DNA from: Frigoribacterium endophyticum
Lineage (GTDB): Bacteria; Actinomycetota; Actinomycetes; Actinomycetales; Microbacteriaceae
Length of the DNA: 64,000 nt
NCBI RefSeq assembly: GCF_011759585.1
Contig: NZ_JAAOYV010000002.1
Span: 617,510-681,509 of the forward strand
Reading direction: 5' to 3'
Positions 11,868 through 34,398 of this stretch are shown here, piece after piece. Positions within the stretch are counted from its first letter, which is position 1, and each line of letters opens with the position of its first letter. The notes under the pieces are model-generated. The model was not told where the DNA came from, made no database searches, and worked only from the letters and a program-made list of their open reading frames with translations. The position numbers and the translations under genes are program-made.

Positions 11868-12113
11868 CTAGCGCGCCGGGTCGGCCGGGGCCGGCGACAC
11901 CGTGGTCGCCGTCGCGGGAGCGGCGGTCGCGGCGACCGTCGGGGCGGCCGCCGACGCGGCGTCGGCCTCGGCGCCCTTCTCGGTCTCCTTCTTGAAGATG
12001 CTGATCGACTGGCCGAGGCCCTTCGCGAGGGCGGGGAGCTTCGTCGAGCCGAAGAGCAGCAGGACGATGCCGAGGATGATCAGCAGGTGCACTCCGCCGA
12101 GGTTGGCGAGCAT
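11868..12113 (-). CDS. tatA: Sec-independent translocase subunit TatA/E
   Basis: An 81-residue protein with the TatA plan: a short N-terminal membrane helix (LLIILGIVLLLF, residues 9-20), the hinge FGSTKLPALAKGLGQ with the conserved Phe-Gly and Lys-Leu-Pro, an amphipathic helix (SISIFKKETE), then an Ala/Thr/Pro-rich tail. TatA forms the pore of twin-arginine export. An AAGGAG site is six bases before the ATG. TatA is usually beside tatC, which is not in this window, so this may be a second copy. The repeat protein at 32601-34262 carries a twin-arginine leader and is one possible client. Confidence 0.88.
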   Translation of the reverse strand: MLANLGGVHLLIILGIVLLLFGSTKLPALAKGLGQSISIFKKETEKGAEADAASAAAPTVAATAAPATATTVSPAPADPAR

Positions 12114-12298: not shown

Positions 12299-12357
12299 CG
12301 TGATGAGTGTGATATTTTGTGTTCCTGCACTGGATATCTTCCACAGGAGAGGCCACC

Positions 12358-14967: not shown

Positions 14968-15329
14968 GCCCGTTCCGCCCGCTCGACGAGCCCCTCGGCC
15001 ACCAGCTGCGCGACGAAGGCCGACACCTGCTCGCGCACCGCCGCGGGGTCGGCCCCGGGGTGGTCGCGGAGCGACGCGTCGACGAGGTCGTCGACCGCGG
15101 CGACGCCGTCGAGCCGCGCCCAGAGCTCCGCCGCCGTGCCCTCGAGCCGGCGGAGCGTGCTGCGGTCGAGCTGAGCGACGACGAGCGCGTCGCCGTCACG
15201 GGCGACCGCGGCGCGCGGCGACACGCGGACGACGAGGCGGCCGTCGGCTCCTGAGCCTCCGGGGCCTCCGTCGGGCGGTGCCGCGCGCCCCTCGCCGGGC
15301 CCTCGGCCGGTCCCCTCGCCGTCGGTCAT
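14964..15329 (-). CDS. PqqD-family peptide-binding protein
   Basis: A 121-residue protein. The first 30 residues are Gly/Pro-rich and probably disordered. The rest fits the PqqD fold: RVSPRAAVARDGDALVV (strands), then LEGTAAELWARLDGVAAVDDLVDASLRD, then a C-terminal helix pair FVAQLVAEGLVERA. PqqD domains bind the leader of a precursor peptide and deliver it to a modifying enzyme. A second PqqD domain is fused to the HprK-like kinase at 28623-29855. It faces away from the phosphatase operon across the direct-repeat site at 15391-15407. No precursor peptide was recognised. Confidence 0.7.
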   Translation of the reverse strand: MTDGEGTGRGPGEGRAAPPDGGPGGSGADGRLVVRVSPRAAVARDGDALVVAQLDRSTLRRLEGTAAELWARLDGVAAVDDLVDASLRDHPGADPAAVREQVSAFVAQLVAEGLVERAERA

Positions 15330-15514: not shown

Positions 15515-16150
15515 GTGCCACGCCCCGAGACCCGACCCGCCGCCCACCGCCTGCCCTGGGCCACCGCGACCGAGACCGTCGAGCCCGCCCGGGCGGGCGG
15601 CCCGTTCGCGATCGTCGTCGTCTGCCGGGCCAACGAGGCCCGCTCGCCGCTGATCGAGAGGCTGCTCGGCGCGGAGCTCGAGCGCCTCGCCCCCGGCGAC
15701 TTCCGCGTCACGAGCTGCGGCACCCGGGCCCGGGTCGGCGCCGGCGCCGCGCTCGGCACCCTCGAGCTGCTCCGGTCGCACGGCATCGACGCGGCCGACC
15801 ACCGTGCCCGGCAGCTGACCCCGGCCGAGCTCGACGACGTCGACCTCGTCGTCACGGCGGAGCGGAGCCACTCCGACCGCGTGCTCGACCTCGCGCCCGG
15901 GCTCTTCAAGCGCACCTTCACCTTCCTCGAGCTGGCCGGTCTCGCCGTGCACGCCGAGACCGGCGCCCTCGAGGGCCGGGCGTTCGTCGAGCGGGCCGCC
16001 GCCCTCCGCGCCGGCCTCGCCGTCGTCGACGGCCACCGGGCCGACCTCGACGACCCGGTCTCGACGGTCCCCGGCGCGTTCGAGCTGCTCGACCTGCGCA
16101 CGCAGGACGCGGTGTTCGTCATCGCACGCGCCCTCGCGGGTGCGTCGTGA
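15515..16150 (+). CDS. Low-molecular-weight protein tyrosine phosphatase (Wzb-like)
   Basis: A 211-residue phosphatase. The P-loop C-x5-R is CRANEAR at residues 37-43, followed by Ser, as in arsenate-reductase/LMW-PTP folds. A DDP segment near residue 180 matches the general-acid loop. In capsule and exopolysaccharide loci such enzymes remove phosphate from the tyrosine tail of the chain-length kinase; the kinase here is at 21012-22724. The GTG at 15515 has an AGGAG site nine bases upstream and is preferred over longer frames. The first gene of a five-gene unit, it overlaps the next by GTGA. Confidence 0.88.
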   Translation: MPRPETRPAAHRLPWATATETVEPARAGGPFAIVVVCRANEARSPLIERLLGAELERLAPGDFRVTSCGTRARVGAGAALGTLELLRSHGIDAADHRARQLTPAELDDVDLVVTAERSHSDRVLDLAPGLFKRTFTFLELAGLAVHAETGALEGRAFVERAAALRAGLAVVDGHRADLDDPVSTVPGAFELLDLRTQDAVFVIARALAGAS

Positions 16151-17358
16151 CCGGCACCGTGCCGCCCCGCGACGACGTCGGCCCCGTGACGGACGGGCTG
16201 GCGCTCGTCTTCCCGGAGAACGCCGGGGAGCCCGTGTCGCTGCCGCCGCGGCGTCGGCGCAGCCACCAGCCGCACGCCTCGTCGTCGCGCACCCACCCCC
16301 GCACCGACGGGTCCCGCGACGCGGGCCCCCGCACCGCCGGGTCCCGCGGCCGGGCGGCCGCGCGCGGCCCCCGTCGCCGACGCGCCCTCCGCCGCCTCAC
16401 CGCTGTGCTCGTCGTCCTCGTCGGGCTGCCGCTGCTGGCCGGCGCCCTCGTTCAGCTCGGCTGGCGGTCGGGGGTGACCACCTTCGAGGCCGATCCCTTC
16501 CCGTCCGGCAGCCGACCCGCGCCTCCGGCCGACGGGGCCCTCAACGTGCTGCTCATCGGCTCCGACAGCCGCGACGGCGACCTCGACGCGGTCGACGAGG
16601 CCGGCCCCACGGGTCAGCGCTCCGACACGATGATGCTCGTCAACGTCTCCGGCGACCGCCGCGACGTGACCGTGGTCTCGATCATGCGCGACCTCTGGGT
16701 CGACGTGCCGGGGCACGGCGAGGCGAAGGTGAACGCGGCCTACGCCTGGGGCGGCGCGCCGCTGCTCGTGCAGACGGTCGAGCAGCTGCTCGACACCCGC
16801 GTGGCCCACGTGGCCCTGGTCGACTTCGAGGGCTTCGCCTCGATGTCGACCGCGCTCGGCGGCGTCGAGGTCGACTCCCCCGTCGCCTTCAGCAGCCGCA
16901 ACGTGCCGGGCCACGACTTCGCCGCCGGGGCGAACACCGTCGCCGGCGAGCGGGCCCTGGCCTTCGTGCGCGAGCGGTACGCGTTCGCCGACGCCGACCA
17001 CCAACGCGTGCGCAACCAGCAGGCGTTCCTCCGCGGCGTCGTCGACGGGCTGCTCCGCGACGGCCTCGCCGACCCCGGCCGCCTGGCGTCCTTCGTCAGC
17101 ACGACGACCCGCTGGGTGACCGTCGACGCCGGGCTCGGCCCCGCCGAGACGACCCGCCTCGGCTACGAGCTGCGCGGCGTCCGGGCCGACGACGTCGCCT
17201 TCTTCACCCTCCCCACCGCCGGCGGCGGCGTGCGGGGCGGCGGCCAGTCCGTCGTCCTGCCCGACGAGGCGGCGACGACCGCCGTCTCCGCCGCCCTCGC
17301 CGACGACGACCTGCGCCGCTGGAGCGACGCGGCAGACCTCACCCCGGAGCGACCATGA
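16147..17358 (+). CDS. LytR-CpsA-Psr (LCP) family glycopolymer ligase
   Basis: A 403-residue membrane-anchored protein: a basic, low-complexity cytoplasmic head (residues 1-80), one membrane helix (about 81-103), then the external LCP domain (about 130-330). Conserved LCP elements are LNVLLIGSDSRDGD, RSDTMMLV, VVSIMRDLWVDVPG, KVNAAYAWGG and the FVRERYAFADADHQRVRNQQ stretch with the Arg pair that binds polyprenyl pyrophosphate. LCP enzymes move lipid-linked glycans to the cell wall, so this one probably attaches the polymer made by this island. The GTG overlaps the phosphatase stop, and the ATGA at the end couples it to the glycosyltransferase. Confidence 0.9.
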   Translation: MTGTVPPRDDVGPVTDGLALVFPENAGEPVSLPPRRRRSHQPHASSSRTHPRTDGSRDAGPRTAGSRGRAAARGPRRRRALRRLTAVLVVLVGLPLLAGALVQLGWRSGVTTFEADPFPSGSRPAPPADGALNVLLIGSDSRDGDLDAVDEAGPTGQRSDTMMLVNVSGDRRDVTVVSIMRDLWVDVPGHGEAKVNAAYAWGGAPLLVQTVEQLLDTRVAHVALVDFEGFASMSTALGGVEVDSPVAFSSRNVPGHDFAAGANTVAGERALAFVRERYAFADADHQRVRNQQAFLRGVVDGLLRDGLADPGRLASFVSTTTRWVTVDAGLGPAETTRLGYELRGVRADDVAFFTLPTAGGGVRGGGQSVVLPDEAATTAVSAALADDDLRRWSDAADLTPERP

Positions 17359-18962
17359 CCAGCACCCTCCGGGGCCCGACCACCACGGGCCCCGCCACGA
17401 CCGACGCGACGACCGCGGTCCGGGCCCGGCCCGCCGACCGACCCGCCGTCCGCCCCACCGAGCCGCGGCCCGAGCGCCCGGCCGAGCGTCCCGCCGAGCG
17501 CCCCGCCGACCGCACCCCGCCCCGGGCGCCGGCACCGCGCCTCCCCCGGCGTGCCCTGCCCGTCGTCCCGATGGCCGTCACTGAGGCGGCCGCCCTGCTC
17601 GTCGCGACGTCCGCCGCGCAGCTCGCCTGGTTCGGGCGCGGCCCCCAGGGGCTCGCGATCGGCGACGGCGGCGTGGGCTACAGCACCGTCTCGGTGGCCC
17701 TCACGGCGGCCTGGACCCTCCTCCTCGTCGTCGTCCGCGCCGACGTCCGACCCGACGACCTCTTCGCGACCGGCACCGCGGCGTTCCGCGACGTGCTGCG
17801 CGCGACCGTCGTCGTGGCGGTCGGCGTGAGCCTCTTCTCCGCGGCGACGCAGACGCAGATCTCCCGCGGGTGGCTGCTCGTCGCCGTGCCCGCCGGGCTC
17901 GCCGTGCTGCTGCTCAACCGGCTCGCGTGGCGCGCGCACGTCCGGGCGCTGCGGGCCGCCCGGCGCCTCGGCACCCGCACCGTCGTCGTCGGCACGGCCG
18001 CCGGCGTGGCCGGCCTCCGCCAGGTCCTCGCCCGCGATGCGTCGTCGGGGCTCGACGTCGTCGCCGAGGTCGTCCTGGACGACCTCGACGACGCCCCGGT
18101 GGCCCACGCCGCCCGCACCGCGGAGCTCGTCTCGCTCGTCGAGCGGCGACTGGCCGCCGAGGGCGCGGAGGGCGTGGTCGTCGTCGGCAGCGGGCTCGTC
18201 GGCGACGAGTTCGTGCGCCGCCTGTCGTGGGCCCTCGAGGGCGGCGACGTGCAGCTGATCGTGTCGCCGCAGGTCGGCCCGGTGTCGAGCCGGCGCCTGC
18301 AGCCCGTGGCCGTCGGCGGGCACCAGCTCATCCGCGTCGACCGGGTCCAGCTCGGCGGGCGCCAGTCGGTGCTCAAGCGCCTGATGGACGTGGCGCTCTC
18401 CGCCGTGGGCCTCGTGGTGCTCGCGCCGCTGCTCGCCGGCGTGGCCGCGGCGATCCGCCTGACGTCGCCCGGCCCCGCGGTGTTCCGCCAGACCCGCGTC
18501 GGCGTCGACGGCGCCGAGTTCACCCTCTACAAGTTCCGCAGCATGGTCACCGGGGCGGACGCCCTCGTCACCGCCCTCGTCTCCGACGACGACGACGCCC
18601 GCGGCCCGCTCTTCAAGATGCGCGACGACCCCCGGGTCACTCGGGTCGGCCGCGTCATCCGCCGGTTCTCGGTCGACGAGCTGCCGCAGCTGGTCAACGT
18701 GCTGCGCGGCGACATGAGCCTCGTGGGCCCCCGCCCGCCCCTGCCGCGCGAGGTCGCCGCCTACGACCGCACGGCCCACCGACGCCTGCTGACCCGCCCC
18801 GGCCTGACCGGGGCCTGGCAGGTCAGCGGCCGCGCCGACCTCGACTGGGAGGAGGGGCTCGTGATCGACCTCCTCTACGTCGAGAACTGGACCCTCGCGG
18901 GCGACCTCGCCATCCTCGGCCGCACCGTCGGCGCCGTCCTCCGAGCACGGGGGGCCTACTGA
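17355..18962 (+). CDS. Polyprenyl glycosylphosphotransferase (priming enzyme)
   Basis: A 535-residue protein of the WbaP/CpsE type. A Pro/Arg-rich head (PAERPAERPADR repeats, residues 35-55) is followed by several membrane helices (about 70-200), a nucleotide-binding-like middle, a further membrane helix near 345-370 and the Bac_transf catalytic domain (about 340-535). That domain has FRQTRVGVDG, FTLYKFRSMV, RFSVDELPQLVNVLRGDMSLVGPRP in outline, and RPGLTGAWQVSGR. It transfers a sugar-1-phosphate onto undecaprenyl phosphate to start repeat-unit synthesis. Starts within an ATGA overlap and ends in TGATG with the next gene. Confidence 0.93.
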   Translation: MTSTLRGPTTTGPATTDATTAVRARPADRPAVRPTEPRPERPAERPAERPADRTPPRAPAPRLPRRALPVVPMAVTEAAALLVATSAAQLAWFGRGPQGLAIGDGGVGYSTVSVALTAAWTLLLVVVRADVRPDDLFATGTAAFRDVLRATVVVAVGVSLFSAATQTQISRGWLLVAVPAGLAVLLLNRLAWRAHVRALRAARRLGTRTVVVGTAAGVAGLRQVLARDASSGLDVVAEVVLDDLDDAPVAHAARTAELVSLVERRLAAEGAEGVVVVGSGLVGDEFVRRLSWALEGGDVQLIVSPQVGPVSSRRLQPVAVGGHQLIRVDRVQLGGRQSVLKRLMDVALSAVGLVVLAPLLAGVAAAIRLTSPGPAVFRQTRVGVDGAEFTLYKFRSMVTGADALVTALVSDDDDARGPLFKMRDDPRVTRVGRVIRRFSVDELPQLVNVLRGDMSLVGPRPPLPREVAAYDRTAHRRLLTRPGLTGAWQVSGRADLDWEEGLVIDLLYVENWTLAGDLAILGRTVGAVLRARGAY

Positions 18963-19756
18963 TGTCGCTCGTCACCGCGCCCCTGCTGCGCGTCGGCGCC
19001 CGGGGCACGCACCTCGACGGGCAGCCGCTCTTCCGGGGCGGCCCCGACGAGCTCCTCGACGCGATGGAGGCGCTGGTCGCCTCGGGCGGCCGCCACCTGG
19101 TCATGACCCCGAACGTCGACCAGGTGCTGGCCCTCCGCACTGACCCGCGCACCGCCGCCGCGCACCGTGCCGCCTCCCTGCGGATCGCCGACGGCGCCCC
19201 CCTCGTCGGCCTCGCCCGTCTGCTCGGCGACCAGCACATCCAGCGGCTCACGGGCGCCGACCTCCTCGGCGACGTCGTCGCCCGGGCGGCGCGGAACGGC
19301 TGGCGCGTCGCGATCGTCGGGGGCGCCGAGGGCGTCAGCGACGACGCGGCGGCCAGGCTGAGGGCGTCGTCGCCGGGCGTCCGCCTCGTCACCGTGCCCT
19401 TCCCGTTCGTGCGCTCGGTCGACGACGCCGGGTGCAGAGCCGTCGCCGACGCGCTGCGCGTCGAGCGGCCCGACGTCGTCTTCGCCTGCCTCGGCTCGCC
19501 GAAGCAGGAGGCCTGGTTCCTCGAGTGGCGCGACCGCCTCCCCCCGGGCGTCTACGTCGGCGCCGGCGCCGCCGTCGAGTTCGCGGCGGGCACCCGGGCG
19601 CGTGCCCCGCGCCTCGTGCAGCGCCTCGGCGGCGAGTGGCTCTGGCGGCTCGCCCAGGAGCCGCGCCGCCTGGCGCACCGCTACCTCGTGCGCGGCCCGG
19701 CCTTCGTCGGCGTCGTGCTGGGCTCGCTCCTCGCGGCCCGCGGGCGGCGCTCGTGA
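18962..19756 (+). CDS. WecG/TagA/CpsF-family glycosyltransferase
   Basis: A 264-residue GT26-type enzyme. Seen in order are TPNVDQVLALR, RIADGAPLVGLARLLG (the DG dipeptide holds the catalytic Asp), RLTGADLL, VAIVGG, CLGSPKQEAWF, and GAAVEFAAGT near the C-terminus. Family members add the second sugar, often N-acetylmannosaminuronic acid or N-acetylmannosamine, to the lipid-linked primer. This follows the preceding gene product in both the pathway and the operon. The start codon shares one base with the previous stop (TGATG), and the end overlaps the GT2 start by GTGA. Confidence 0.9.
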   Translation: MSLVTAPLLRVGARGTHLDGQPLFRGGPDELLDAMEALVASGGRHLVMTPNVDQVLALRTDPRTAAAHRAASLRIADGAPLVGLARLLGDQHIQRLTGADLLGDVVARAARNGWRVAIVGGAEGVSDDAAARLRASSPGVRLVTVPFPFVRSVDDAGCRAVADALRVERPDVVFACLGSPKQEAWFLEWRDRLPPGVYVGAGAAVEFAAGTRARAPRLVQRLGGEWLWRLAQEPRRLAHRYLVRGPAFVGVVLGSLLAARGRRS

Positions 19757-20814
19757 GCGCGCCCCGGGTCACCGTCGTCTCGGCCGTGCACCGGCCGGGC
19801 CCCCACCTGCCCGCCTTCCTCGCCCGGCTCGACGGCTGCCTCGCCGAGGGCGCGCAGGTCGTCGTCGTCGACGACGCCTCCGGGGACGGCACCGGGGAGG
19901 CGCTGGTCACGTGGGCCGCGTCACGCCCGTCCGCCGTCGTGGTCGTCGCCGACGAGAACGCGGGCGTCGCCCGCAGCCGCAACCGGGCGCTCTGCCACGC
20001 CGTCGGCGACTTCGTGTGGTTCGTCGACCACGACGACGAGTGGGAGGACGACGCGCTCGCCGTCCTCACCGCCGCCACGGGCGACGACGACGGCGAGCGC
20101 GTCGACGTCGTCTGGTGCCGGGCCGACCACCGACGGGCGGCCGGGGTGCCCGGCAAGGTCGTCGACGGCCTCGCCGAGCACCGGACGGTGACCGGCGACG
20201 TCGCCCTCGCGCTCCTCCTCGACCGCCGGGTCGACGGGTTCCTCTGGTCGAAGCTGCTGCGACGCCGGCTGCTCGGCGACGCGCCCTTCCCCGAGCTGAC
20301 CTCGCAGAGCGACGTCGCGGGGGCGGCGGCGGTGCTGGCCCGCGCCTCCCGGGTGCGGTTCGTGCCCGAGGTGCTCTACCACTGGACCCACCGCCCGGGG
20401 TCGATCACGAGGGTCTCGACGCCGCGGCTCGCCAACCTCGAGCGGGCGCACGACCTCGTGCTGGCGGCGGCCCGGGCCCGGGGCGGCGCGGCCGCCGACG
20501 AGCGCGTGCGCCAGCGCTTCACCACGACCTTCCTCTGCCTGGCGCTCGTCGCCCTGCCCGTGCGCCTGGGCGCCCCCGCGGCGGTGCGGCGGGAGGGGCT
20601 CCGACGGGCCCGGCACGCCCTCGACGGCGTCGACCTCGGCGCGGTGCGACGACGCGACCCCCTGGCCTGGGGCGTGCTCCGGGGCGCCCTCGTGGCGCCC
20701 GCCGCGACGACCGCGGCGCTCCGCGTGCTGTACGCCGCGCACGACGTGAGGGGCCGTGCCCGGCTCCGGCTCGGGGCCGCCGCCCGGGCACGCGGAGCGG
20801 TCCACCCGGGGTGA
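19753..20814 (+). CDS. GT2-family glycosyltransferase
   Basis: A 353-residue enzyme with a GT-A fold. The nucleotide-sugar site is seen as VVVVDDASGDGT (about residues 36-47) and the metal-binding acidic motif as WFVDHDDEWEDD (about 92-103), unusual in reading DHDDE rather than DxD. About 120 C-terminal residues beyond the catalytic core are Arg/Ala-rich. It probably adds a sugar to the growing lipid-linked unit on the inner face of the membrane. It is the last gene of the first exopolysaccharide operon, and its stop codon overlaps direct-repeat site 2. Confidence 0.88.
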   Translation: MSAPRVTVVSAVHRPGPHLPAFLARLDGCLAEGAQVVVVDDASGDGTGEALVTWAASRPSAVVVVADENAGVARSRNRALCHAVGDFVWFVDHDDEWEDDALAVLTAATGDDDGERVDVVWCRADHRRAAGVPGKVVDGLAEHRTVTGDVALALLLDRRVDGFLWSKLLRRRLLGDAPFPELTSQSDVAGAAAVLARASRVRFVPEVLYHWTHRPGSITRVSTPRLANLERAHDLVLAAARARGGAAADERVRQRFTTTFLCLALVALPVRLGAPAAVRREGLRRARHALDGVDLGAVRRRDPLAWGVLRGALVAPAATTAALRVLYAAHDVRGRARLRLGAAARARGAVHPG

Positions 20815-21011: not shown

Positions 21012-22724
21012 GTGGACCGACCCGACACCGAGCCCCGCCCCAGGACCCTCGACCTGCAGGACTACCTGCGCATCGTGCGGTCGTACTGGCTGGGCGCCTT
21101 CCTCATCGTGCTGCTCGGCGTGACCGCCAGCGCCGGCTGGACCCTCACCCAGACCCGCGTCTACGAGTCGAGCGCGTCCGGCGTCGTGCGGGTGGCGGCC
21201 GGGGGCGACGCCAACCTCGCCTTCGCCGCCGACCAGCTGGCGAAGTCGCAGGCGCAGTCGTACGTCGAGCTCGGCGGCTCGCTCGCGGTGGCCGAGTCGG
21301 CCGCGGCGGCGCTCGGCGGAGCGGCGTCGCCGGCGTCGCTGCTGGGGCGCGTGACCACCTCGCTGCCCGAGGACACGGCCATCATCACCGTCACCTCCCG
21401 CGGCTCGACCCCGGCCGACGCCGCGGCGCTGACCGACGCCTGGCTCGCCGCGATGGGCGAGCAGATCGCCGCGATGCAGGAGGAGAGCACCGACACGGGC
21501 TGCTCGGCCACGTCGTTCGTCGCGCTCTCGTCGGCGTCGGTGCCGACCTCGCCCGCGTCGCCGAACGTGGAGGTGGCCCTCCTGCTCGGCGGGCTCTCGG
21601 GCCTCCTGCTCGCCGGCGTCTACCTGCTCGTCCGCAACACGCTCGACCGCCGGATCCGCTCCGCGGCCGAGGTGGAGTCGCGGTTCGGCGTGGGCGTGAT
21701 CGGCACCATCCCGCAGAACGACGCGCTGGCAGAGCACGGCGGCCTCGTCGCGGCGCTGCCGAACGCCACCGCCGACGACCGGCACGTGAACTTCGCCATG
21801 TCGGAGGCGCTGCGCGAGCTCCGCACCAACCTCGCCTACGTCAAGGTCGACGCCCAGCCGCGGGTGATCGTGATGACGAGCCCGCAGCCCGGGGACGGCA
21901 AGTCGACGCTGGCGGCCAACCTCGCGGAGTCGCTCGCCGTGTCGTCCGACCAGCGGGTCGTCGTCATCGACTGCGACCTGCGTCGGCCGACCCTCTCGAA
22001 GGTGCTCGGCGTCTCCGAGGGCGCGGGCCTCACCGACGTGCTCTCCGGCCGGGCGCAGCTGCACCAGGTCATGCAGCAGACCGAGGCCGCGTCGAACCTC
22101 TGGGTGGTCGGCGCGGGGCGCATCCCCCCGAACCCGAGCGAGCTGCTCGGGTCGAAGACCTTCCAGGACCTCGTCTCGACCCTCGCCGAGCACGCGACCG
22201 TCATCCTCGACGCTCCCCCGGTGCTCGCCGTGACCGACGCCGCCGTGCTGGCGGCCAAGGCCGACGGCGTGCTGATGACCGCCTCGGCCGCGCGCACCAC
22301 CTTCGACCAGCTCGACCGGGCGCTCCAGCTCGTGACGCGCGGCGGCGGCGACGTGCTCGGCGTCGTGCTGAACCGCGTGCCCACCAAGGGCCGCGACGCC
22401 CGCGAGTACGGCTACTTCGGCGGCAGCTACTACTACTACGAGGGCGACGTCGGCACGGGCGGGGAGGTCGGGCCCGGCGCGGGCTCCGGCCCGGTGGCTC
22501 CCTCGCCCGAGGCCGTGACGGCCCCCGCGCCCGTGGTCGCCGCGACGCCGGCGGCGACCCCGGAACAGGCACAGGCACCGGCTCCGGCTGCGGCTCCGGG
22601 TCCGGCCCGCGTCCCCGCCTCGCCCGGGGCCCCCGCCTCCCCCGCCGAGGCCGCCGAGGTCCCCGAGGCCCCCGGCGGCGCGCTCACCCGTCGCGAGATC
22701 CGCGAGCGCGAGCGCACGCGGTGA
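21012..22724 (+). CDS. Chain-length determinant / tyrosine kinase (Wzc-like)
   Basis: A 570-residue fused Wzz and BY-kinase protein. Membrane helices lie near residues 24-45 and 190-212 and bracket a short external region of about 145 residues. The kinase follows, with Walker A GDGKST at residues 295-299 region, Walker A' VVVIDCDLRRPTL and Walker B VILDAPPVL. A tyrosine cluster (YGYFGGSYYYYEG) lies near 466-478 and is the likely autophosphorylation site. A Pro/Ala-rich tail of about 85 residues follows the tyrosines, which is unusual because the cluster is normally terminal. It controls polymer length and export with the phosphatase at 15515. An AGGAGAAG site precedes the GTG start. Confidence 0.92.
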   Translation: MDRPDTEPRPRTLDLQDYLRIVRSYWLGAFLIVLLGVTASAGWTLTQTRVYESSASGVVRVAAGGDANLAFAADQLAKSQAQSYVELGGSLAVAESAAAALGGAASPASLLGRVTTSLPEDTAIITVTSRGSTPADAAALTDAWLAAMGEQIAAMQEESTDTGCSATSFVALSSASVPTSPASPNVEVALLLGGLSGLLLAGVYLLVRNTLDRRIRSAAEVESRFGVGVIGTIPQNDALAEHGGLVAALPNATADDRHVNFAMSEALRELRTNLAYVKVDAQPRVIVMTSPQPGDGKSTLAANLAESLAVSSDQRVVVIDCDLRRPTLSKVLGVSEGAGLTDVLSGRAQLHQVMQQTEAASNLWVVGAGRIPPNPSELLGSKTFQDLVSTLAEHATVILDAPPVLAVTDAAVLAAKADGVLMTASAARTTFDQLDRALQLVTRGGGDVLGVVLNRVPTKGRDAREYGYFGGSYYYYEGDVGTGGEVGPGAGSGPVAPSPEAVTAPAPVVAATPAATPEQAQAPAPAAAPGPARVPASPGAPASPAEAAEVPEAPGGALTRREIRERERTR

Positions 22725-23611
22725 CCGGGCCGGCCGTCGTCGTGGCCGCCGCCCCCGTCGTCGAGCTGGCCCACGCCCTCGTCGCCGACGTGGCCGGCGG
22801 CGTCGGCCTGCGGGCCCTCGTCGTCAAGGGCGACGGGGCCGCCCACCACGGCCTCCGGCCGCCCCGCGTCAGCGCCGACGTCGACGTCCTGCTCCGCGGC
22901 CGGGACGACGCCGCCCGGTTCGGGGCGGAGCTGGCACGACGGGGCTGGCGCACCCGCCCCGCCGACGCCGACCTCACGGCCTTCCCCCGCCACTCCGAGA
23001 CCTGGTTCCACCCGGGCTGGAGCTGCGACCTCGACGTGCACCACCGCTTCCCGGGGCTCGACGACGACCCCGGGGCGGCGTTCGACGCCCTCTGGGCCCG
23101 CCGCGTGGTGCTCGACCGGGCCGGCCGCGACGTCGCGGTGCCCGGCCGGGTCGACACCCTCCTCGTGCTGGCCCTGCACTGCCTCCGCAGCCCCTGGGTC
23201 GAGCGCCACGCCGACGAGCACGACCGCCTGGTCGAGCACGCGCGGGCGCTCCCCGTCGCGGAGCTCGTCGACGCCGCGCGTCGCCTGCGCGCCCTCGCGC
23301 CGCTGCGCCCCTTCGTCGAGGAGGCCGCGGGTCCGCTCGACCTCGCCTGGGGCGCCCCGTCCGCGGAGTGGCGGCTGCGCACCCGGTCGGCCTCGCCCCT
23401 GACGCGTCGGCTCGTGGCCTTCCGCGACGCCGGCGCCCGCGAGCGGCTGCACGCCGTGCGCCTCGCGCTGCTGCCGCCGCGGGCGACCCTCGTGAAGGAC
23501 GGCCTCGGCGCCGACCTCCGGGGCGTCGACCTGCTGCGCGCCTACGTCGTGCGCTGGGCGCGGGGCCTGCGCGGGCTGCCCGTGGCCTGGCGCGACGCGC
23601 GGCACGGCTGA
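22721..23611 (+). CDS. Nucleotidyltransferase-fold protein (NTP_transf_5 type)
   Basis: A 296-residue protein starting in a GTGA overlap with the kinase gene. The segment LRALVVKGDGAAHHG followed by RVSADVDVLLRGRDD matches the LKG...SDxDLLV pattern of the NTP_transf_5 group, with acidic pair D-V-D as metal ligands. DLDVHHRFPG further on supplies the third acidic residue. Members of this group occur beside HprK-like kinases and PqqD proteins in lasso-peptide and HPr-rel clusters, where they nucleotidylate or otherwise modify a phosphorylated partner. Both companions are in this island. The target here is unknown. Confidence 0.7.
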   Translation: MTGPAVVVAAAPVVELAHALVADVAGGVGLRALVVKGDGAAHHGLRPPRVSADVDVLLRGRDDAARFGAELARRGWRTRPADADLTAFPRHSETWFHPGWSCDLDVHHRFPGLDDDPGAAFDALWARRVVLDRAGRDVAVPGRVDTLLVLALHCLRSPWVERHADEHDRLVEHARALPVAELVDAARRLRALAPLRPFVEEAAGPLDLAWGAPSAEWRLRTRSASPLTRRLVAFRDAGARERLHAVRLALLPPRATLVKDGLGADLRGVDLLRAYVVRWARGLRGLPVAWRDARHG

Positions 23612-25174: not shown

Positions 25175-27469
25175 GTGACCCGCTCCGTCGCACCCGCACC
25201 CGCACCCGCCCCCGCCGCCCCGCGCCCCGCACGCCCGGCCCCGCACCTCGCGCTCCGCTTCCGCCCCGACGTCGAGGGGCTCCGGGCGCTCGCCGTGCTG
25301 CTGGTGCTCGCCGACCACCTCGTCGGCGCCCCCTCCGGCGGGTTCGTCGGCGTGGACGTCTTCTTCGTCCTCTCCGGCTTCCTCATCACCGGGCTCCTGC
25401 TGCGGGAGGCCGAGACCACCGGGCGCGTCGACCTGCTGGCCTTCTACCTGCGGCGCACCCGCCGCATCGTGCCGGCCGCGCTGCTCGTCGTGGTCGTCAC
25501 CGTCGTCGCGTCGGCCCTCGTCCTGCACCGCGTCGGCGCCCTCCGCGTGCTCGGCGACGGGGTCGCGTCGGTGCTCATGGTGCAGAACTGGCACCTGGTG
25601 CGGCGCGGGGTGAGCTACTTCGGCGGCGACGGCACCGGCTCGCCCCTGCTGCACTACTGGTCGCTCGCCGTCGAGGAGCAGTTCTACGTGCTCTGGCCCT
25701 GGCTGTTCGTGGTCTGGGCCTGGTCACGTCGGCGTGCGCGACGGCGCACCGCGTCCGGGTCGACGACGCCCCGCCCGGGCACCGGGCGCCCAGCGCTGAT
25801 GGTGGTCGTGCTCGCGGCGACCGCCGCCTCGTTCGGGGCCTCCGTCGCGGAGACCGAGCTGCGCCAGGGCTGGGCCTACTTCTCGTTCCAGTCGCGCGCC
25901 TGGGAGCTGGGCGTGGGGGCGGCCGTCGCCGTGGCGGCCCCCGCCCTCGCCCGGGCGGGCCGGGCCGGGCGCACCGTGCTCTGGTCGGGCGGCCTGCTCG
26001 CGATCCTCGCGTCGGCCGTGCTCGTCGGCCCCGAGCACGCCTTCCCCGGCGTCGCCGCGCTGCCGGTCGTGCTCGGCACCGCCGCCCTGCTCGCCTCGGG
26101 AGGTGCCTCCGGCGGGCGGCGCCTCGCCCCCGTCGTCCTGCTCGACAACCCGCCGATGCGCTGGCTCGGCCGCGTCTCGTACTCCCTCTACCTCTGGCAC
26201 CTGCCCGTGTTCGTCCTGCTCTCGGCCGTGTGGCCCGACCGCGGCCTCGCCGTCGCGGGGCTCGCGGCCACGCTGTCGGTCGGCCTCGCCGCCCTCACCC
26301 ACCGGTTCGTCGAGCAGCCCCTCCGCCACAGCGCCGTCGGGCGGCGTGGCGGCTCGGCCGACCCCCGGGCGGAGTCGCGGGCAGGGTCGCGCGCGGAGGC
26401 CCGGACGGAGGCGCGGCGCCGGTCGCACGGCTTCCTGGCCGGGACGACGGTGGCGGTGGCGGTGCTCGGCCTCTCCGCCGTGCAGCTCGTCGGCCCGGCG
26501 ACGTTCCCGCTGCCCGCGCGGGCTCCTGCGGAGCGTGCCGCCGCCACACCGTTCCCCGATGAGGCCGCCCTGCGCGCCGCCGTGCAGGAGGCGGCGGACG
26601 CGGAAGGCTGGCCGGCCCTCTCGCCGTCGCCGGACGACGTGTCGCCGGCCGACGGCGCGGCCGCCTCGGCGGGCCCCGGCTGCCTCGTCGACCCGGTGGG
26701 CGCCTCCCCCCGGTCCGTGGCGGAGGCCGCGGCGTCCTGCACCGCGGGCGCCGAGCACGCCGAGCGCACCGCCGTCGTGCTCGGCGACTCCATCGCGACC
26801 AGCTGGCTGCCGGGGATCACCGGGGCGCTGGTGCCGGAGGGCTGGAGGGTGGTCGGTCAGGGCCTGCAGAGCTGCCCCGCCGTCGACGTGCGCACGACCG
26901 ACCGGCTCGAGCGCGCCTCCTTCGCCGGCGACTGCACGGCCGCCCGCGACGCCGCCGTGGAGCGCGTGGTGGCCGAGGCCCCCGACCTCGTCGTGCTGTC
27001 GAGCTCCCTCGGCGCGTACCAGCGGCTGACCGGGCGGGGCGACGAGGCCGACGCGGCGGGAGCCTGGCGGGAGGGCACGGCCCGCACCGTGGCCGAGCTC
27101 GCGGCGACCGGAGCGACCGTCGTCGTGCTCAGCTCGCCGCCCGAGTCCGCGCCCGCCGCGGAGTGCGCCGTGCGCCCCCGCGGGCCCGTGACGTGCCTCA
27201 GCACGCCCTCCCGCGCGTGGGTCGACAAGACGGCCGCGGAGCAGGAGGCCGTGGCCGGCCTCGCCGACGGCTCGACGCCCGGGGCGCCGCTGCGCGCCCG
27301 GTTCGTCGACACGACGCCCTGGACGTGCACGGACGAGCTGCGCTGCCCGGCCTTCGTCGGCGACGGCCTGGTCAAGGTCGACGCCGGGCACCTCGCGGAG
27401 CGGTGGTCGGCCTCGCTGGCGCTCGTCCTCCGGGCGGCCCTGCTCGACGGGGCGGGTGACGCCCGGTGA
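25175..27469 (+). CDS. OafA/YrhL-type acyltransferase with SGNH domain
   Basis: A 764-residue protein. The N-terminal half is an Acyltransferase-3 membrane domain (about ten helices, residues 30-420) with FVGVDVFFVLSGFLITGLL, the HYWSLAVEEQFYVLWP block and the WLGRVSYSLYLWHLP block. The C-terminal extracytoplasmic half (about 490-764) is SGNH-like, with VVLGDSIATSWLPG as block I (Ser in GDS) and VVLSSSLGAY later; several Cys may form disulfides outside the cell. It should O-acetylate or otherwise acylate the polymer. The GTG at 25175 follows a GAGGAGG site. It ends in a GTGA overlap with the GT4 gene. Confidence 0.9.
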   Translation: MTRSVAPAPAPAPAAPRPARPAPHLALRFRPDVEGLRALAVLLVLADHLVGAPSGGFVGVDVFFVLSGFLITGLLLREAETTGRVDLLAFYLRRTRRIVPAALLVVVVTVVASALVLHRVGALRVLGDGVASVLMVQNWHLVRRGVSYFGGDGTGSPLLHYWSLAVEEQFYVLWPWLFVVWAWSRRRARRRTASGSTTPRPGTGRPALMVVVLAATAASFGASVAETELRQGWAYFSFQSRAWELGVGAAVAVAAPALARAGRAGRTVLWSGGLLAILASAVLVGPEHAFPGVAALPVVLGTAALLASGGASGGRRLAPVVLLDNPPMRWLGRVSYSLYLWHLPVFVLLSAVWPDRGLAVAGLAATLSVGLAALTHRFVEQPLRHSAVGRRGGSADPRAESRAGSRAEARTEARRRSHGFLAGTTVAVAVLGLSAVQLVGPATFPLPARAPAERAAATPFPDEAALRAAVQEAADAEGWPALSPSPDDVSPADGAAASAGPGCLVDPVGASPRSVAEAAASCTAGAEHAERTAVVLGDSIATSWLPGITGALVPEGWRVVGQGLQSCPAVDVRTTDRLERASFAGDCTAARDAAVERVVAEAPDLVVLSSSLGAYQRLTGRGDEADAAGAWREGTARTVAELAATGATVVVLSSPPESAPAAECAVRPRGPVTCLSTPSRAWVDKTAAEQEAVAGLADGSTPGAPLRARFVDTTPWTCTDELRCPAFVGDGLVKVDAGHLAERWSASLALVLRAALLDGAGDAR

Positions 27470-28626
27470 GCGGGCTCACGACGGGGCCCGACGGGGTCGG
27501 CCCGGCCGGCGGCGAGGGGCCCGGGGCGGCGCTCCGCGTGGTCCACGTGCTCGACTCGTTCACGACCGGCGGCGCCCAGGCGGTCGCCGTGCAGCTGAGC
27601 ACCTGGCTCGTCGCACGCGGCGCCGAGGCGCACCTGCTCGGCGTCGACGGCCCGCTGGCCCCGGACGCCCGACGGGCCCTCGGGCCGGCGCGCGTGCACG
27701 TGCGCCCAGGGACGGTCGCCGTCGGGGGCTCCGTCGGGCGCTTCGTCGCGGGCCTGCGCGCACTCGACCGGGCCTGCCGTGAGGTCCGCCCCCACGTCCT
27801 CCACGCGCACCAGCGCCGCGAGGCCCTGCAGTGCCTCCTGGTCGGCGCGCGGCACGGCGTGCCCGTCGTCGAGCACGCCCACACCTACCTGCCCCGCGCC
27901 GGCCTCCGGGCATTGTCGTTCCGGAGCGCCGCCGTGTTCGCGGTCAGCGACCACGTCGGGGCGATGATCGCCGACCGGTTCGGTCGTCGAGACGGCGTCC
28001 TCGTCGTCGGCAACGCACCGGCCCGGACGACCGACCGGTCCGTGCTGCCCGTCCCGCCGCCGGGCGACCGCCCGCTGCGGATCGTCGGCCTGGGCCGGCT
28101 CGTCGAGCAGAAGGACCCGCTCCGCTTCGTCCGCGTGGTGGCGGCGGCGGCCCGGGTCGTCGACGTCGAGGCGGTGTGGCACGGCGACGGTCCCCTGCTC
28201 GACGAGGCCCGGGCGCTCGCCTCCCGCCTCGGGGCGCCCGTCGTCTTCGCCGGCCACGCCGACGACGTGCCGGCGAGGATCGACGCGGCCGACGCCCTGC
28301 TCATGACCTCGGCCTGGGAGGGGCTCCCCCTCGTGGTGCTCGAGGCCTTCGCCCGGCACCGGCCCGTCGTCGCGACGGCGGCCTCGGGCGCGCCCGGCGC
28401 GCTGGGCGACGGCCGCGCGGTGGTCGTGCCCGACGACGCCGACGACGAGACCGCGGCCCGCCTGCTGACCACCGCCCTCGCCGACCGGGCGAGGACGACC
28501 GAGCAGGTCTCCCTCGCCGCCGGGTGGCTGGCCCGCCGGGCCACCCCCGACGCCGTCTTCGGCCCCGTGCTGCGGACCTACGATGAACTGCGGCGCCGCG
28601 CCGCACCGAGAGGGCGACGACCGTGA
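27466..28626 (+). CDS. GT4-family glycosyltransferase
   Basis: A 386-residue GT-B enzyme. The acceptor half shows LRVVHVLDSFTTGGAQ and HAHQRREAL. The donor half has VGLGRLVEQKDPLRFV, WHGDGPLLDEAR and the E-x7-E region SAWEGLPLVVLEAF that binds the nucleotide sugar. It should add a sugar on the cytoplasmic side. The sugar cannot be predicted. The middle gene of the acyltransferase, GT4 and HprK-PqqD unit, it is joined on both sides by GTGA overlaps, which argues that the kinase belongs to the polymer pathway. Confidence 0.9.
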   Translation: MSGLTTGPDGVGPAGGEGPGAALRVVHVLDSFTTGGAQAVAVQLSTWLVARGAEAHLLGVDGPLAPDARRALGPARVHVRPGTVAVGGSVGRFVAGLRALDRACREVRPHVLHAHQRREALQCLLVGARHGVPVVEHAHTYLPRAGLRALSFRSAAVFAVSDHVGAMIADRFGRRDGVLVVGNAPARTTDRSVLPVPPPGDRPLRIVGLGRLVEQKDPLRFVRVVAAAARVVDVEAVWHGDGPLLDEARALASRLGAPVVFAGHADDVPARIDAADALLMTSAWEGLPLVVLEAFARHRPVVATAASGAPGALGDGRAVVVPDDADDETAARLLTTALADRARTTEQVSLAAGWLARRATPDAVFGPVLRTYDELRRRAAPRGRRP

Positions 28627-29855
28627 GCCACCAGACCGACCCCGCCGACCTCGACGCCCTCGACGCCCTGACCGTCACCGCGATCGGCTGCCGGGTGGTG
28701 GTCGGGCTCGTGGGCCTCGACGCCGGGCAGCGCGCCGACCTCGCGACGTCGTGGGCGTGGTGCGAGCCCGTCCTCGAGCGTCGACCCCGCTCGGAGTGCG
28801 ACGCCGTGGCCGTGCTCGGCGGCGGCGCAGCCGACGACGCCGACGCCGACGGCCCCGCCGACGGGCCCGTGCTCGTCGTTGCCGACGCGCTCGACCAGCT
28901 CGCGGAGACCGTCACGACCGTGGTCACGCAGCTCGCCATCGACCAGCGCCGTGACGACCTCCTCCTGCTGCACGCCGGCGGCGTCGCCGACCCCGTCACG
29001 GGCGCCGTCGTCGCGTACGTGGCCCCGTCCGGGCACGGCAAGACGACCGCCTCCCGCGCCCTCGGCCGCACCCTCGGCTACGTGACCGACGAGACCGTCG
29101 CCGTCGACGACGACGGCCTGGTGGTGCGCTACCCCAAGCCCCTCTCGGTGCGGGGCCCGGCCGCGCCGGGGACGTCGCGGCCCAAGGCGCAGGTCTCGCC
29201 CGACGCGGCGGGGCTCCGACGCGCTCCCGACGGGCCCCTGACGCTCGCGCGCGTCGTGCTGCTCGACCGCGCCCCCGCCGCGACCGAGGTGACGGTCGGC
29301 CCGATCGGCCTCGCCGAGGCCGCCGCCCGGCTCTTCCCGCAGATCAGCTACCTCGGCGCCCGCAGCCGCCCGCTGCGCCGGCTGCAGGCCCTGCTCGAGC
29401 GCACCGGCGGCCTGCTCGTCGTGCGCTACGCCGAGGCCGCGACCCTCGAGTCGGCCGTGCGCGAGCTGCTCGCCGTGTCGGCACCGGCCGCGACGCCGGG
29501 GGGCGAGGGCCCCGGGGAGGCGACGGTCGGGCTCGACGCGCACCGCGCCTCCCCGGGGGCGCCGGGCCCGACGCACGGCGGGGGCGTCCTCGCCGCGACG
29601 GCGGTGGACGACTGGGTGGCCGACGGGGGCTCCGTCGTGGTGCTGCACCGCGACTCCCTGCGGACCCTCTCGGGCATCGGCGTCGCCGTGTGGCACGCGG
29701 CCCGGGCCGGCCGCACGCTCGACGAGGCCGTGGCCGCCGTCGTGCGCGAGCACGGCCTGCCGGGCGACGGGCCCGAGGCGGTCGCCCGGGCCCGCGAGCT
29801 CGTGCTGGCCGCCGTCGCCGAGCTCGTCGCCGCCGGCCTCGTGCGTCAGCGCTGA
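28623..29855 (+). CDS. HprK-like kinase fused to a PqqD domain
   Basis: A 410-residue fusion. Residues about 85-300 resemble HPr kinase-like ATPases: LLLLHAGGVAD, then the P-loop PSGHGKTT (Lys140), then VTDETVAVDDDGLVVRYPKPLSV as in the HprK_C strand and RPKAQVSP. Residues about 325-410 form a PqqD domain (DDWVADGGSVVVLHRDSLRTLSGIGVAVWHAA in outline, then AVAELVAAGLVRQR). The fusion suggests a kinase that is brought to its target through a peptide-binding module. Relatives include HprK-related kinases of exosortase loci and the Ser kinases of lasso-peptide clusters. No HPr or precursor gene was recognised. It is the last gene of its operon, started in a GTGA overlap. Confidence 0.75.
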   Translation: MSHQTDPADLDALDALTVTAIGCRVVVGLVGLDAGQRADLATSWAWCEPVLERRPRSECDAVAVLGGGAADDADADGPADGPVLVVADALDQLAETVTTVVTQLAIDQRRDDLLLLHAGGVADPVTGAVVAYVAPSGHGKTTASRALGRTLGYVTDETVAVDDDGLVVRYPKPLSVRGPAAPGTSRPKAQVSPDAAGLRRAPDGPLTLARVVLLDRAPAATEVTVGPIGLAEAAARLFPQISYLGARSRPLRRLQALLERTGGLLVVRYAEAATLESAVRELLAVSAPAATPGGEGPGEATVGLDAHRASPGAPGPTHGGGVLAATAVDDWVADGGSVVVLHRDSLRTLSGIGVAVWHAARAGRTLDEAVAAVVREHGLPGDGPEAVARARELVLAAVAELVAAGLVRQR

Positions 29856-29879: not shown

Positions 29880-32370
<2,491 letters not shown>

Positions 32371-32600: not shown

Positions 32601-34262
32601 CTACGCGGGCACGGTGCCCACGAAGAGGTGCGTGCTGCCGTCGGGGGCGCCGCCGATGGCCGTGGCCGGCAGGACGGTCGGGTTCGCCCCGCTGCCGAGC
32701 TGCCATGCTCCGCGGTTGTCGGTCGCGATGTACGAGTGGCCCCAGACCTCACCGGTCGCGGTCACCATCGTGTAGGCGATCTGCGGGTCCTCGCCGGCGC
32801 GGTGGGCGCTGGCCGCCGAGATGCCGACGACGGCGCCCGTCGCGCCCTCGGCCTTGCGCGCGATCGGGTCGAAGCCGTCGCCGTACGACCAGGCGCGCCA
32901 GAGCTGGCCGCCCTTGGCGTAGTAGTGCACGCTGCCCGTCGCGTTGCCGCCGATCGCCGTCGCGGGCCGCACGGCGCCGTCGACGCCCGTGTCCTGGAGC
33001 TCCCAGGGCACCTCGTTGGCGAGCGTGCTCGCCGAGGCCCACAGCTGGCCGGTGCTGGTGATCGCCGTGGCCGCGAGCTGGCCCGCCATCTCCGGGTGGT
33101 AGGCGTCGACCGCGTCGATCTGCACGACGGCGCCGTCGACGCCGTCGAGCTGGCGCTCGGGCGAGGCCGCCGAGGCCGCGGTGCTCGTGACGAGCCAGAG
33201 CTGGCCGTCCTTGACGTAGCGGTGCTGGCTCGTGCCGCCGGGGCCGCCGACCGTGGTGGCCGGGCGGACCGACGACGAGGCGCCGGTGTCGACGAGCCGC
33301 TGACTCGTGCCGGTGTTGAACGACGCGAAGGCCCAGACCTGGCCGGTGCTCGTGACGGCCGTGAGGGCGAGGGGGGTCGACGCGCCGGAGACGTGGCCGT
33401 TCGCGGCGGAGACCTGGGCCACCGAGCCGGTCGCGCCGGTGAGGAGGCGGTTCGGGCCCGCGCCGGTGCCGGCCCCGCCGTACCACCAGAGCTGGCCGTC
33501 CTTGACGTAGAGGTGGTAGCTCCAGCTGCCCGTGTAGCCGATGGCCGTGGCGCCCTCGACCGCGGGGTCGGCCCCGGTGTCGACGAGGCCCCAGCCGGCG
33601 CCGGCGCCCCGGGTCGCGCCCAGCGCCCAGACCTCGCCGGTCGTGGTGACCGCCGTGTAGGCGACCTGGCCCGGCTGGCCGGGCAGGGTCACGGTCGCGG
33701 CGGAGACGTGCGCGATGTTCCCCGTCGCGTCGGGGATCTGCCGGGCGGCCGGCTGGTCGCCCGTGCCCGCCGTGACGGGGACGAGGAAGAGGCCCTCCTG
33801 CACGACCGTGACGGTGGCGGTGACGGGCGCGACGCCGGCTACCGTGGCCGTGAGGGTGACGACGCCTCCCTCGGCGGCGCTCGCGACGAGGCCGGTGGCG
33901 ACCGCCACTCCCGCGGCGTTCGTCACCGTCGTCCAGGTGGTCGAGCCGCCGAACGAGGCGGGGCCGGTGACGGTCAGGGTGACGGTCTCGTTCGCGAGCG
34001 GGACGCCGTTCTGCGAGAGCACGAGCACGCTGGCGTCCGACAGGTCGGAGCCGAGCGCCCGCGGCAGCTCGTTCGAGAAGCCGATGGTGGCGCGGGCGTT
34101 CGACGACGCGGCGTGGGCGGGGGTCGCGAGGGCGATGCTCACGACGGGCACGGCCCAGGCCGCGGCGGTGACGACGGAGCGGCGCGAGGGCCCGGCGTGC
34201 CCCTCGACGACGGACGGCGGGGCGGCCGGGTTCACGGGCAGGGAGCGATGACGATCGGTCAC
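32601..34262 (-). CDS. Tat-exported repeat protein, propeller-like
   Basis: A 553-residue exported protein of unknown function. SRRSVVTAAAWAVPVVSIALA ending in AHA is a twin-arginine signal. Residues about 55-150 look like an Ig-like/invasin domain (GVPLANETVTLTVTGP, GVAVATGLVASAAEGGVVTLTA in outline). The remaining 380 residues are about four tandem copies of a near-95-residue repeat, each with TAVTSTGQVWA, a LVDTGA..V.PATAIGG strand and a HxYVKDGQLW strand. This is reminiscent of RCC1 or tectonin-like propellers that bind glycans. It is in the exopolysaccharide island and preceded by direct-repeat site 5, so it may bind the polymer at the surface. The start is GTG at 34262. Confidence 0.7.
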   Translation of the reverse strand: MTDRHRSLPVNPAAPPSVVEGHAGPSRRSVVTAAAWAVPVVSIALATPAHAASSNARATIGFSNELPRALGSDLSDASVLVLSQNGVPLANETVTLTVTGPASFGGSTTWTTVTNAAGVAVATGLVASAAEGGVVTLTATVAGVAPVTATVTVVQEGLFLVPVTAGTGDQPAARQIPDATGNIAHVSAATVTLPGQPGQVAYTAVTTTGEVWALGATRGAGAGWGLVDTGADPAVEGATAIGYTGSWSYHLYVKDGQLWWYGGAGTGAGPNRLLTGATGSVAQVSAANGHVSGASTPLALTAVTSTGQVWAFASFNTGTSQRLVDTGASSSVRPATTVGGPGGTSQHRYVKDGQLWLVTSTAASAASPERQLDGVDGAVVQIDAVDAYHPEMAGQLAATAITSTGQLWASASTLANEVPWELQDTGVDGAVRPATAIGGNATGSVHYYAKGGQLWRAWSYGDGFDPIARKAEGATGAVVGISAASAHRAGEDPQIAYTMVTATGEVWGHSYIATDNRGAWQLGSGANPTVLPATAIGGAPDGSTHLFVGTVPA

Positions 34263-34318: not shown

Positions 34319-34398
34319 CTCGTGTCGGCACCCTGGACCCTCCGCCGGGGCCGGTCACCGCGACTCCCGCGCCCCCGCGCCGCCGGCGCACCGACATT

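Follow-up and report, generated by a model that had tools for sequence, protein, structure and literature searches.

A kinase-RRE fusion in a Frigoribacterium polysaccharide locus, with Tat-signal proteins as its candidate substrates

Linear polyphosphorylated peptides (LPPs) come from capsule loci of Bacillota that encode an HPr kinase-like (HprK) enzyme, a recognition element of ribosomally synthesized and post-translationally modified peptides (RRE), a nucleotidyltransferase (NTP transferase) and a signal peptidase; the action of the kinase, RRE and signal peptidase on a YxxP leader that has a serine downstream has been demonstrated (PMC13381572). Discrete RREs of lasso peptide and LPP systems bind a leader of the form [Y/W]xxPx[L/V/I/F/A], and in crystal structures the aromatic residue and the residue at +5 occupy two pockets, with the proline between them. 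The phosphorylated Ser3 of the LPP precursor lies 18 residues past Tyr -16 of its leader (PMC13381572). Here we describe a 64,000-nucleotide stretch from Frigoribacterium endophyticum (the window), in which an open reading frame at positions 28623-29855 encodes an HprK-like kinase fused to a C-terminal PqqD-type RRE. Across related genomes this kinase co-occurs with proteins whose twin-arginine translocation (Tat) signals contain a WxxPx[V/I] motif, and we refer to these proteins as cargo. We lean, with some reserve, towards RRE-guided modification of Tat-exported proteins: an actinobacterial relative of LPP biosynthesis in which a Tat signal would serve as leader and a secreted protein of full size would be the product.

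LPP loci and the loci described here both have an HprK-like kinase with intact catalytic residues, a discrete RRE, an NTP transferase, no cyclase, a capsule or polysaccharide setting and a variable C-terminal part, and some of the loci studied here also carry a signal peptidase; the leaders share [Y/W]xxPx[V/I], and the serine lies 17 residues beyond the aromatic one here and 18 in LPP. In contrast to LPP, the leader here is a Tat signal with Trp in place of Tyr, the RRE is fused to the kinase or encoded just behind it, the cargo are secreted proteins (one to at least 31 per genome, often unlinked), and the host belongs to Actinomycetota, whereas LPP and paeninodin are said in PMC13381572 to be restricted to Bacillota. 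The LPP precursor motif YxxPxVLxHQxIxFETxxS is not found; the 190 cargo we collected have WxxPx[VI]...S(+17). Signal peptidase I, in the relatives' copies tested, is of bacterial rather than archaeal (SipW-like) type: the copy in locus L024 scores 110.3 bits against TIGR02227 and 19 bits, below cut-off, against the archaeal TIGR02228, and that in L033 matches Pfam Peptidase_S26. An MsbA-like exporter gave no Pfam match among the scanned genes of the window cluster, to which that scan was confined. Because precursor motif, peptidase type and exporter all differ, we do not class the system as an LPP.

Paeninodin and pseudomycoidin share with the window an HprK-like kinase, a nucleotidyltransferase homologue and a WxxP leader (for paeninodin, PMC13381572), and phosphorylated lasso peptides carry the phosphate on the C-terminal Ser of a short peptide (PMC9266682). 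They differ in their cyclase. A search of the Frigoribacterium genome gave no Asn-synthase match at E<=0.001, as the earlier reading of the window from its letters alone (the sequence-only reading) had supposed, with control rings found in 11 of 14 genomes; a lasso peptide is therefore not expected, and that reading was rejected. The NCBIfam HPr-rel-A families (TIGR04352 and TIGR04353) also pair an HprK-related kinase with a PqqD protein, but the scores against them are 16.9 bits (fusion residues 105-177; cut-off 200) and 17.4 bits (35 required). No description of such a Tat-linked RRE/kinase system was found in a literature search that left most subscription journals outside its reach. The sequence-only reading had suggested an undescribed system; the enzyme parts are in fact known from LPP. 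As far as our searches reach, enzymes of the LPP and paeninodin kind are familiar, and a Tat signal serving as leader with full-size, often unlinked protein cargo is new.

The kinase fusion and its partner enzymes

The 410-residue fusion begins at a GTG that overlaps the TGA stop of the preceding GT4 glycosyltransferase gene. Residues H117, G137, G139, K140, T142, D156 and E157 are invariant in all 18 rows of an alignment of the window copy with 17 of 20 relatives' loci (L030, L035 and L043 do not contribute), and again in 43 of 43 rows when the window copy is aligned with copies from 42 of the 69 named loci introduced below. Lasso peptide kinases have a His-Lys-Asp-Asp (HKDD) motif (PMC9266682), in which the second Asp is replaced by Glu in all 43 kinases here. 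The AlphaFold2 model (pLDDT 89.6, pTM 0.86) has the phosphoenolpyruvate carboxykinase (PEPCK)/HPr kinase fold: the best Foldseek match is the PEP carboxykinase 1oen (E 1.6e-5, TM 0.38 over the fused model), and the HPr kinases 1ko7 (3.4e-4, rank 42) and 1knx (rank 49) are among the best 50. This bears out the sequence-only reading, which had proposed a P-loop HprK-like domain and a PqqD domain in one frame overlapping the glycosyltransferase gene, and which had staked its case on retention of the P-loop lysine in homologues. The gene product joins a kinase of the HprK/PEPCK fold to a C-terminal RRE of PqqD type.

We hold to the kinase identity, despite profile scores that are weak (no Pfam kinase family matches at E<=0.01), because of the invariant catalytic residues and the fold. 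The scores would also suit an ordinary HPr kinase, or else a degenerate remnant, whose tail resembles PqqD by chance; with the catalytic residues invariant in 43 of 43 copies and an RRE within 900 bp behind the kinase in 68 of the 69 named loci, we consider this extremely unlikely. One kinase copy (L043:9427-10311, genome G188) looks broken past about residue 205, and its genome retains 11 cargo matches.

The Pfam PqqD profile matches residues 338-407 at 21.8 bits in the whole protein, just below the cut-off of 23.4, and at 26.5 bits, above it, in a six-frame search. An RRE-family profile, whose alignment contains the window's stand-alone RRE twice, finds as its best solved relatives the RREs TbiB1 (3.3e-8), PbaB1 (1.7e-7) and LppB (9x8z, 1.6e-6), followed by PqqD (2.5e-4) and TfuB1 (2.9e-4), which places these RREs in kinship with leader-binding ones.

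The two partners that the sequence-only reading had grouped with the fusion, a stand-alone PqqD protein and an NTP_transf_5 protein, both exceed their Pfam cut-offs (Table 1). Residues K36, G37, D53, D55, D105 and H107 of the NTP_transf_5 protein are invariant in 34 of 34 aligned sequences (33 of the 35 matches in the named loci were used), and its structure model (pLDDT 91.3) matches the nucleotidyltransferase MenT1 (5e-5) and, more weakly, ANT(2'') and FKRP. A defence system was considered and rejected, PADLOC giving no match for three proteins.

A leader motif inside Tat signals

Tat-signal proteins recur beside the kinase, and their signals share RR-x7-W-x-x-P-x-[V/I], a small-residue site and a serine at W+17. 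They have the anatomy of Tat signals: a twin arginine, a hydrophobic stretch and AxA ahead of the mature part. The window has such a copy, with a single gene between it and the kinase; the sequence-only reading, which recognised no precursor, is superseded on this point by a candidate precursor family. Tryptophan occupies the motif position in 190 of 193 distinct-leader profile matches; the profile and its [WYF]xxP filter partly build in the W, yet Y or F never occurs. The three exceptions all lie in one locus (L208, genome G359), which encodes three twin-arginine proteins near the cargo profile that lack the W: RRQVLIGSAIAVPAIM and similar.

Of these 190 cargo the window contributes 1, family loci 21, a control region 1, targeted fetches 75 (with the cargo-only genomes G085 and G165 among their sources), order loci 48 and named loci 44. 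Arg fills the two positions of the twin arginine in 97% and 100% of them, 172 have I or V at +5, and Ala stands at both +14 and +16 in 118 (RR...AHA in the window copy). The serine at W+17 is present in 180, and conservation ends abruptly there, with no conserved residue beyond it. Because the control set of ordinary Tat signals is mixed with false matches and sub-threshold cargo, the case for this serine is drawn from that abrupt end.

Mature parts fall into 100 clusters, 71 of them singletons, and so are mostly unlike one another; their length quartiles are 129, 150 and 212 residues, some frames being clipped by the fetched stretch. None of nine copies scanned passed a Pfam cut-off and none of eight an NCBIfam cut-off, one cargo giving a sub-threshold match to the Tat-target family TIGR02811 (16.4 of 48.45 bits). 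By simple patterns, and with the same clipping, C-terminal anchors are nearly absent (LPxTG in 2 of 190, a hydrophobic tail in 0 of 190). The mature part of the window cargo has a weak Ig-like match followed by about four repeats of some 110 residues with G[QE][LV]W motifs, as judged by eye.

Two kinase-bearing contigs of uncultured Aeromicrobium and Actinomycetales (L253 and L259) have nearby twin-arginine proteins with the leader RRTVVRG...TVWTASAV...A, perhaps a second leader type.

Kinase and cargo across genomes and loci

The kinase passes E<=1e-8 in 18 of the 199 family genomes. Cargo at E<=1e-10 is found in 17 of these 18 and in 2 of the other 181; the eighteenth, G163, has cargo at 1.1e-5. 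At a loose E<=0.01 the counts become 18 of 18 and 25 of 181. This comparison is partly circular, since the cargo profile was trained on cargo from 11 family genomes; outside the training set, 6 of 7 kinase-positive genomes pass E<=1e-10. NTP_transf_5 follows the same pattern (16 of 18 kinase-positive genomes, 12 of 181 kinase-negative), so the trio does recur elsewhere, as the sequence-only reading had required. The order set of 248 genomes shares only the Frigoribacterium genome with the training rows. Here the kinase (E<=1e-40) occurs in 45 genomes, cargo (E<=1e-8) in 44 and both in 40, that is, cargo in 40 of 45 kinase-positive against 4 of 203 other genomes (Fisher 5.7e-36; 39 of 44 without the Frigoribacterium genome). 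The kinase threshold was chosen after seeing the list, and E<=1e-8 gives 40 of 50 against 4 of 198. At least seven kinase-negative genomes are common to the family and order sets. Only the best few candidates were scored per genome (family: 9 for kinase, 31 for cargo; order: 7 and 25), so absences may be misses and copy numbers, which run from 1 to at least 31 (G073), are lower bounds.

The association can also be followed within genera, among the genomes listed: in g85 cargo is present in four kinase-positive genomes and absent from five kinase-negative ones, in g90 present in three and absent from one, and in the genus of the window present in one and absent from three (G167 matching only at E 0.003). 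Across the phylum cargo passes E<=1e-7 in only 2 of 296 genomes, the window's own and G215, both kinase-positive; this scarcity shows that the leader is not a general Tat signal.

Linkage points the same way. We compared 20 loci of 20 kb around kinase copies in 17 other family genomes with 40 control regions of 20 kb, set at round rather than random coordinates in kinase-positive genomes. The loci contain a bacterial tyrosine kinase (BYK) in 14, a phosphatase in 14, NTP_transf_5 in 12 and signal peptidase I in 7, against 2, 1, 0 and 0 control regions. As the neighbour profiles were built from these loci, the matches arise partly by construction, and the 69 named loci are a fairer test. Cargo at 18 bits or more occurs in 10 of the 20 loci (21 copies) and in 1 of the 40 controls (1 copy), and at 10 bits in 11 and 2.

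The named loci were collected by a kinase-pattern scan of genome contigs (from a six-row alignment), regardless of cargo, and come from Subtercola, Rathayibacter, Arthrobacter, Pseudarthrobacter, Herbiconiux, Agromyces, Kocuria, Demequina, Flexivirga, Actinomyces and others; several (among them L210, L213, L217, L234 and L238) are the same records as genomes of the surveyed sets. Cargo is present in 37 of the 69, against 1 of 40 controls, with the nearest copy at a median of 1340 bp; a BYK is present in 53, a phosphatase in 38, NTP_transf_5 in 35 and signal peptidase I in 22 (0 of 40 controls). Two Demequina loci (L265 and L267) have the order NTP5-RRE-BYK-phosphatase-HprK-RRE-cargo on one strand, with 3 and 7 cargo copies, so that the kinase and NTP_transf_5 each have an adjacent RRE. 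A further 20 order loci (L190-209) were picked mostly for cargo near the kinase and are illustrative only. Linkage to TatC (3 of 20 family and 2 of 69 named loci, against 1 of 40 controls) and to TatA (2 of 20 and 2 of 69, against 2 of 40) was too weak to use.

It is conceivable that the product of the trio is a short, LPP-like peptide encoded by an unrecognised frame, and that the Tat proteins are simply further surface proteins encoded in these polysaccharide loci. Short precursors are what such enzymes modify in Bacillota (PMC13381572), and whole-protein clustering would overlook a precursor conserved only over a short leader, as happened with the cargo. When the genes of 20 loci and the window were clustered in search of the small conserved frame that the sequence-only reading had hoped for, no family of median length below 200 residues was common to at least four loci, a weak test given that whole proteins were clustered. 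The cargo leader, however, has the RRE motif at nearly the LPP spacing, the Demequina loci have tandem cargo genes behind the kinase, and co-occurrence holds genome-wide though many cargo are unlinked to the locus. We judge a short-peptide product quite unlikely.

Two observations on individual loci stand apart. The locus L255, in an assembly of the Bacillota species Sporosarcina beigongshangi (NZ_JADHDY010000011.1), lies in a stretch of 68.6% G+C and looks like an actinobacterial contaminant contig. In Subtercola, a Pro-rich, apparently secreted protein with a transmembrane stretch (L024:7236-8381 and L025:7264-8400) adjoins the signal peptidase and the kinase.

A possible pathway and the genes around it

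In the pathway we favour, cargo would be made with a Tat signal that doubles as leader, RR-x7-W-x-x-P-x-[V/I]-x11-S. The kinase-fused RRE and the stand-alone RRE would bind WxxPx[V/I] in the cytoplasm and hold the signal, much as Tat proofreading chaperones hold Tat signals. The HprK domain may then phosphorylate, perhaps several times, Ser(+17) beside the signal-peptidase site, a step suggested by the LPP kinase, which does likewise to Ser3, 18 residues past the leader Tyr. An RRE-guided NTP_transf_5 could next put a nucleotide or a sugar on the phosphate. The precedent is PsmN, which pseudomycoidin requires to receive one or two hexoses on its phospho-Ser, and which may be either the glycosyltransferase or a nucleotidyltransferase acting before one (PMC9266682); deletion of lppN in the LPP study caused no change (PMC13381572). 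Finally, the folded, marked protein would exit through Tat, signal peptidase I would cut off the leader, and the protein would end in or on the exopolysaccharide encoded by the surrounding genes.

The position of the RRE motif within the Tat signal itself, together with the BYK in 53 and the phosphatase in 38 of the 69 loci, would also suit a Tat gatekeeper: the RRE-kinase would bind the cargo signal and release it, dependent on ATP or phosphorylation, during active polysaccharide synthesis, and the cargo would keep no lasting mark. This gives no role to NTP_transf_5 with its conserved active-site residues and leaves the conserved Ser(+17) without a reason, and we think it unlikely. The sequence-only reading had instead proposed control of polysaccharide export through phosphorylation and nucleotidylation of a peptide or carrier. 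The Wzc-type polysaccharide locus would accommodate this, but no carrier was found and the co-occurring partner is a family of exported proteins; the evidence points to modification of those proteins, and control of export in this form seems to us highly improbable.

Several observations weigh against modification of Tat cargo. No cargo appears in 32 of the 69 named loci within the stretch fetched (up to 10 kb per side). Five order genomes, all of family f18 (G302, G316, G356, G382 and G437), have the kinase only, and the 19.5 kb around it (L303-L307) contain an RRE and no match to cargo, BYK, phosphatase or NTP_transf_5; the kinase therefore occurs outside such loci, perhaps in another use. 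In nine other genomes of the phylum the kinase matches are weaker (E 2e-21 to 7e-13) and no cargo is found, and in genus g102 only one of four kinase-positive genomes listed has cargo. Conversely, cargo occurs without a clear kinase in four order genomes (G270, G284, G297 and G414) and two family genomes; seen by genus, among the genomes listed, three of g96 and one of g94 have cargo without a kinase match. Ser(+17) could reflect a signal-peptidase preference instead. The hydrophobic region of a Tat signal should be helical in the membrane, and an RRE-bound leader is a beta-strand, so the binding would have to be transient. No signal peptidase was found among the scanned genes of the window cluster, the rest of the genome not having been searched, and the window TatA may be a housekeeping copy, since the genome has just two TatA_B_E matches. 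As a separate observation, the cargo-only family genome G085 has a more distant HprK (29 bits, locus L296) near a PqqD and an NTP_transf_5 gene, with its cargo elsewhere in the genome.

It is tempting to speculate further, and more doubtfully, that the modified N-terminus is an anchor: a phospho-sugar or phospho-nucleotide on the N-terminal Ser might tie surface proteins, thirty or more per genome, to the exopolysaccharide, with the RREs reading a tag hidden in Tat signals. This would be an N-terminal counterpart to sortase and exosortase, and would explain the near-lack of recognisable C-terminal anchors in cargo. In PEP-CTERM/exosortase systems many unlinked proteins share one sorting tag and one machinery associated with a polysaccharide locus; the logic here is alike, with the difference that a Tat signal at the N-terminus is the tag. 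No exosortase turned up in the scans made, none of which was aimed at exosortases.

If modification of Tat cargo is correct, signal peptides would give RRE enzymes access to whole secreted proteins, RRE-guided modification would be joined to Tat export, and many actinobacterial surface proteins without a Pfam match (0 of 9 scanned over cut-off) would share one maturation pathway, a new bacterial way of marking proteins for the cell surface. It would also point to a possible use for the kinase and NTP transferase that are paired in capsule loci, and whose biological role PMC13381572 describes as unknown.

Table 1. Features of the window, with positions counted from its first nucleotide
Feature	Position	Strand	Remarks
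HprK-like kinase with C-terminal PqqD/RRE	28623..29855	+	410 aa; kinase about aa 83-285, RRE about aa 322-409
Catalytic His117 codon	28971..28973	+	invariant 43/43
Walker A SGHGKTT, Lys140	29028..29048	+	Lys invariant 43/43
Asp156-Glu157 pair	29088..29093	+	invariant 43/43; DE where lasso kinases have DD
RRE (PqqD) domain of the fusion	29586..29855	+	Pfam, six-frame search, AlphaFold2, RRE profile
Proposed substrate, Tat-signal protein	32601..34262	-	separated from the kinase by one gene; possible upstream start at 34397
Twin arginine of the cargo signal peptide	34179..34184	-
WAVPVV, putative RRE-binding WxxPx[V/I] motif in the Tat signal	34140..34157	-
Ser at W+17, candidate phospho-acceptor	34104..34106	-	acceptor role suggested by comparison with LPP
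Stand-alone PqqD/RRE protein	14964..15329	-	Pfam 44.2 bits, above cut-off
NTP_transf_5 nucleotidyltransferase	22721..23611	+	Pfam 38.8 bits, above cut-off
Wzz-Wzc type BYK	21012..22724	+	GTGA overlap with NTP_transf_5
Low-molecular-weight protein tyrosine phosphatase	15515..16150	+	Pfam LMWPc 65.1 bits
LCP ligase, Bac_transf sugar transferase, WecG/TagA, GT2 (polysaccharide genes)	16147..20814	+
GT4 glycosyltransferase	27466..28626	+	overlaps the kinase gene
821-residue protein, C-terminal glycosyltransferase domain	29905..32370	-	N-terminal part reads flippase-like
TatA	11868..12113	-	Pfam

The polysaccharide setting that the sequence-only reading had assigned to the locus is confirmed by its Wzz-Wzc kinase, LCP, sugar transferase and glycosyltransferase genes. 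An acyltransferase-SGNH protein is also encoded on the plus strand of the cluster, and a minus-strand protein gives a sub-threshold Wzy match (18.7 of 31.7 bits). A LuxR-type regulator with an AAA domain (12319-14967, plus strand) ends 4 bases inside the convergent gene for the stand-alone PqqD protein.

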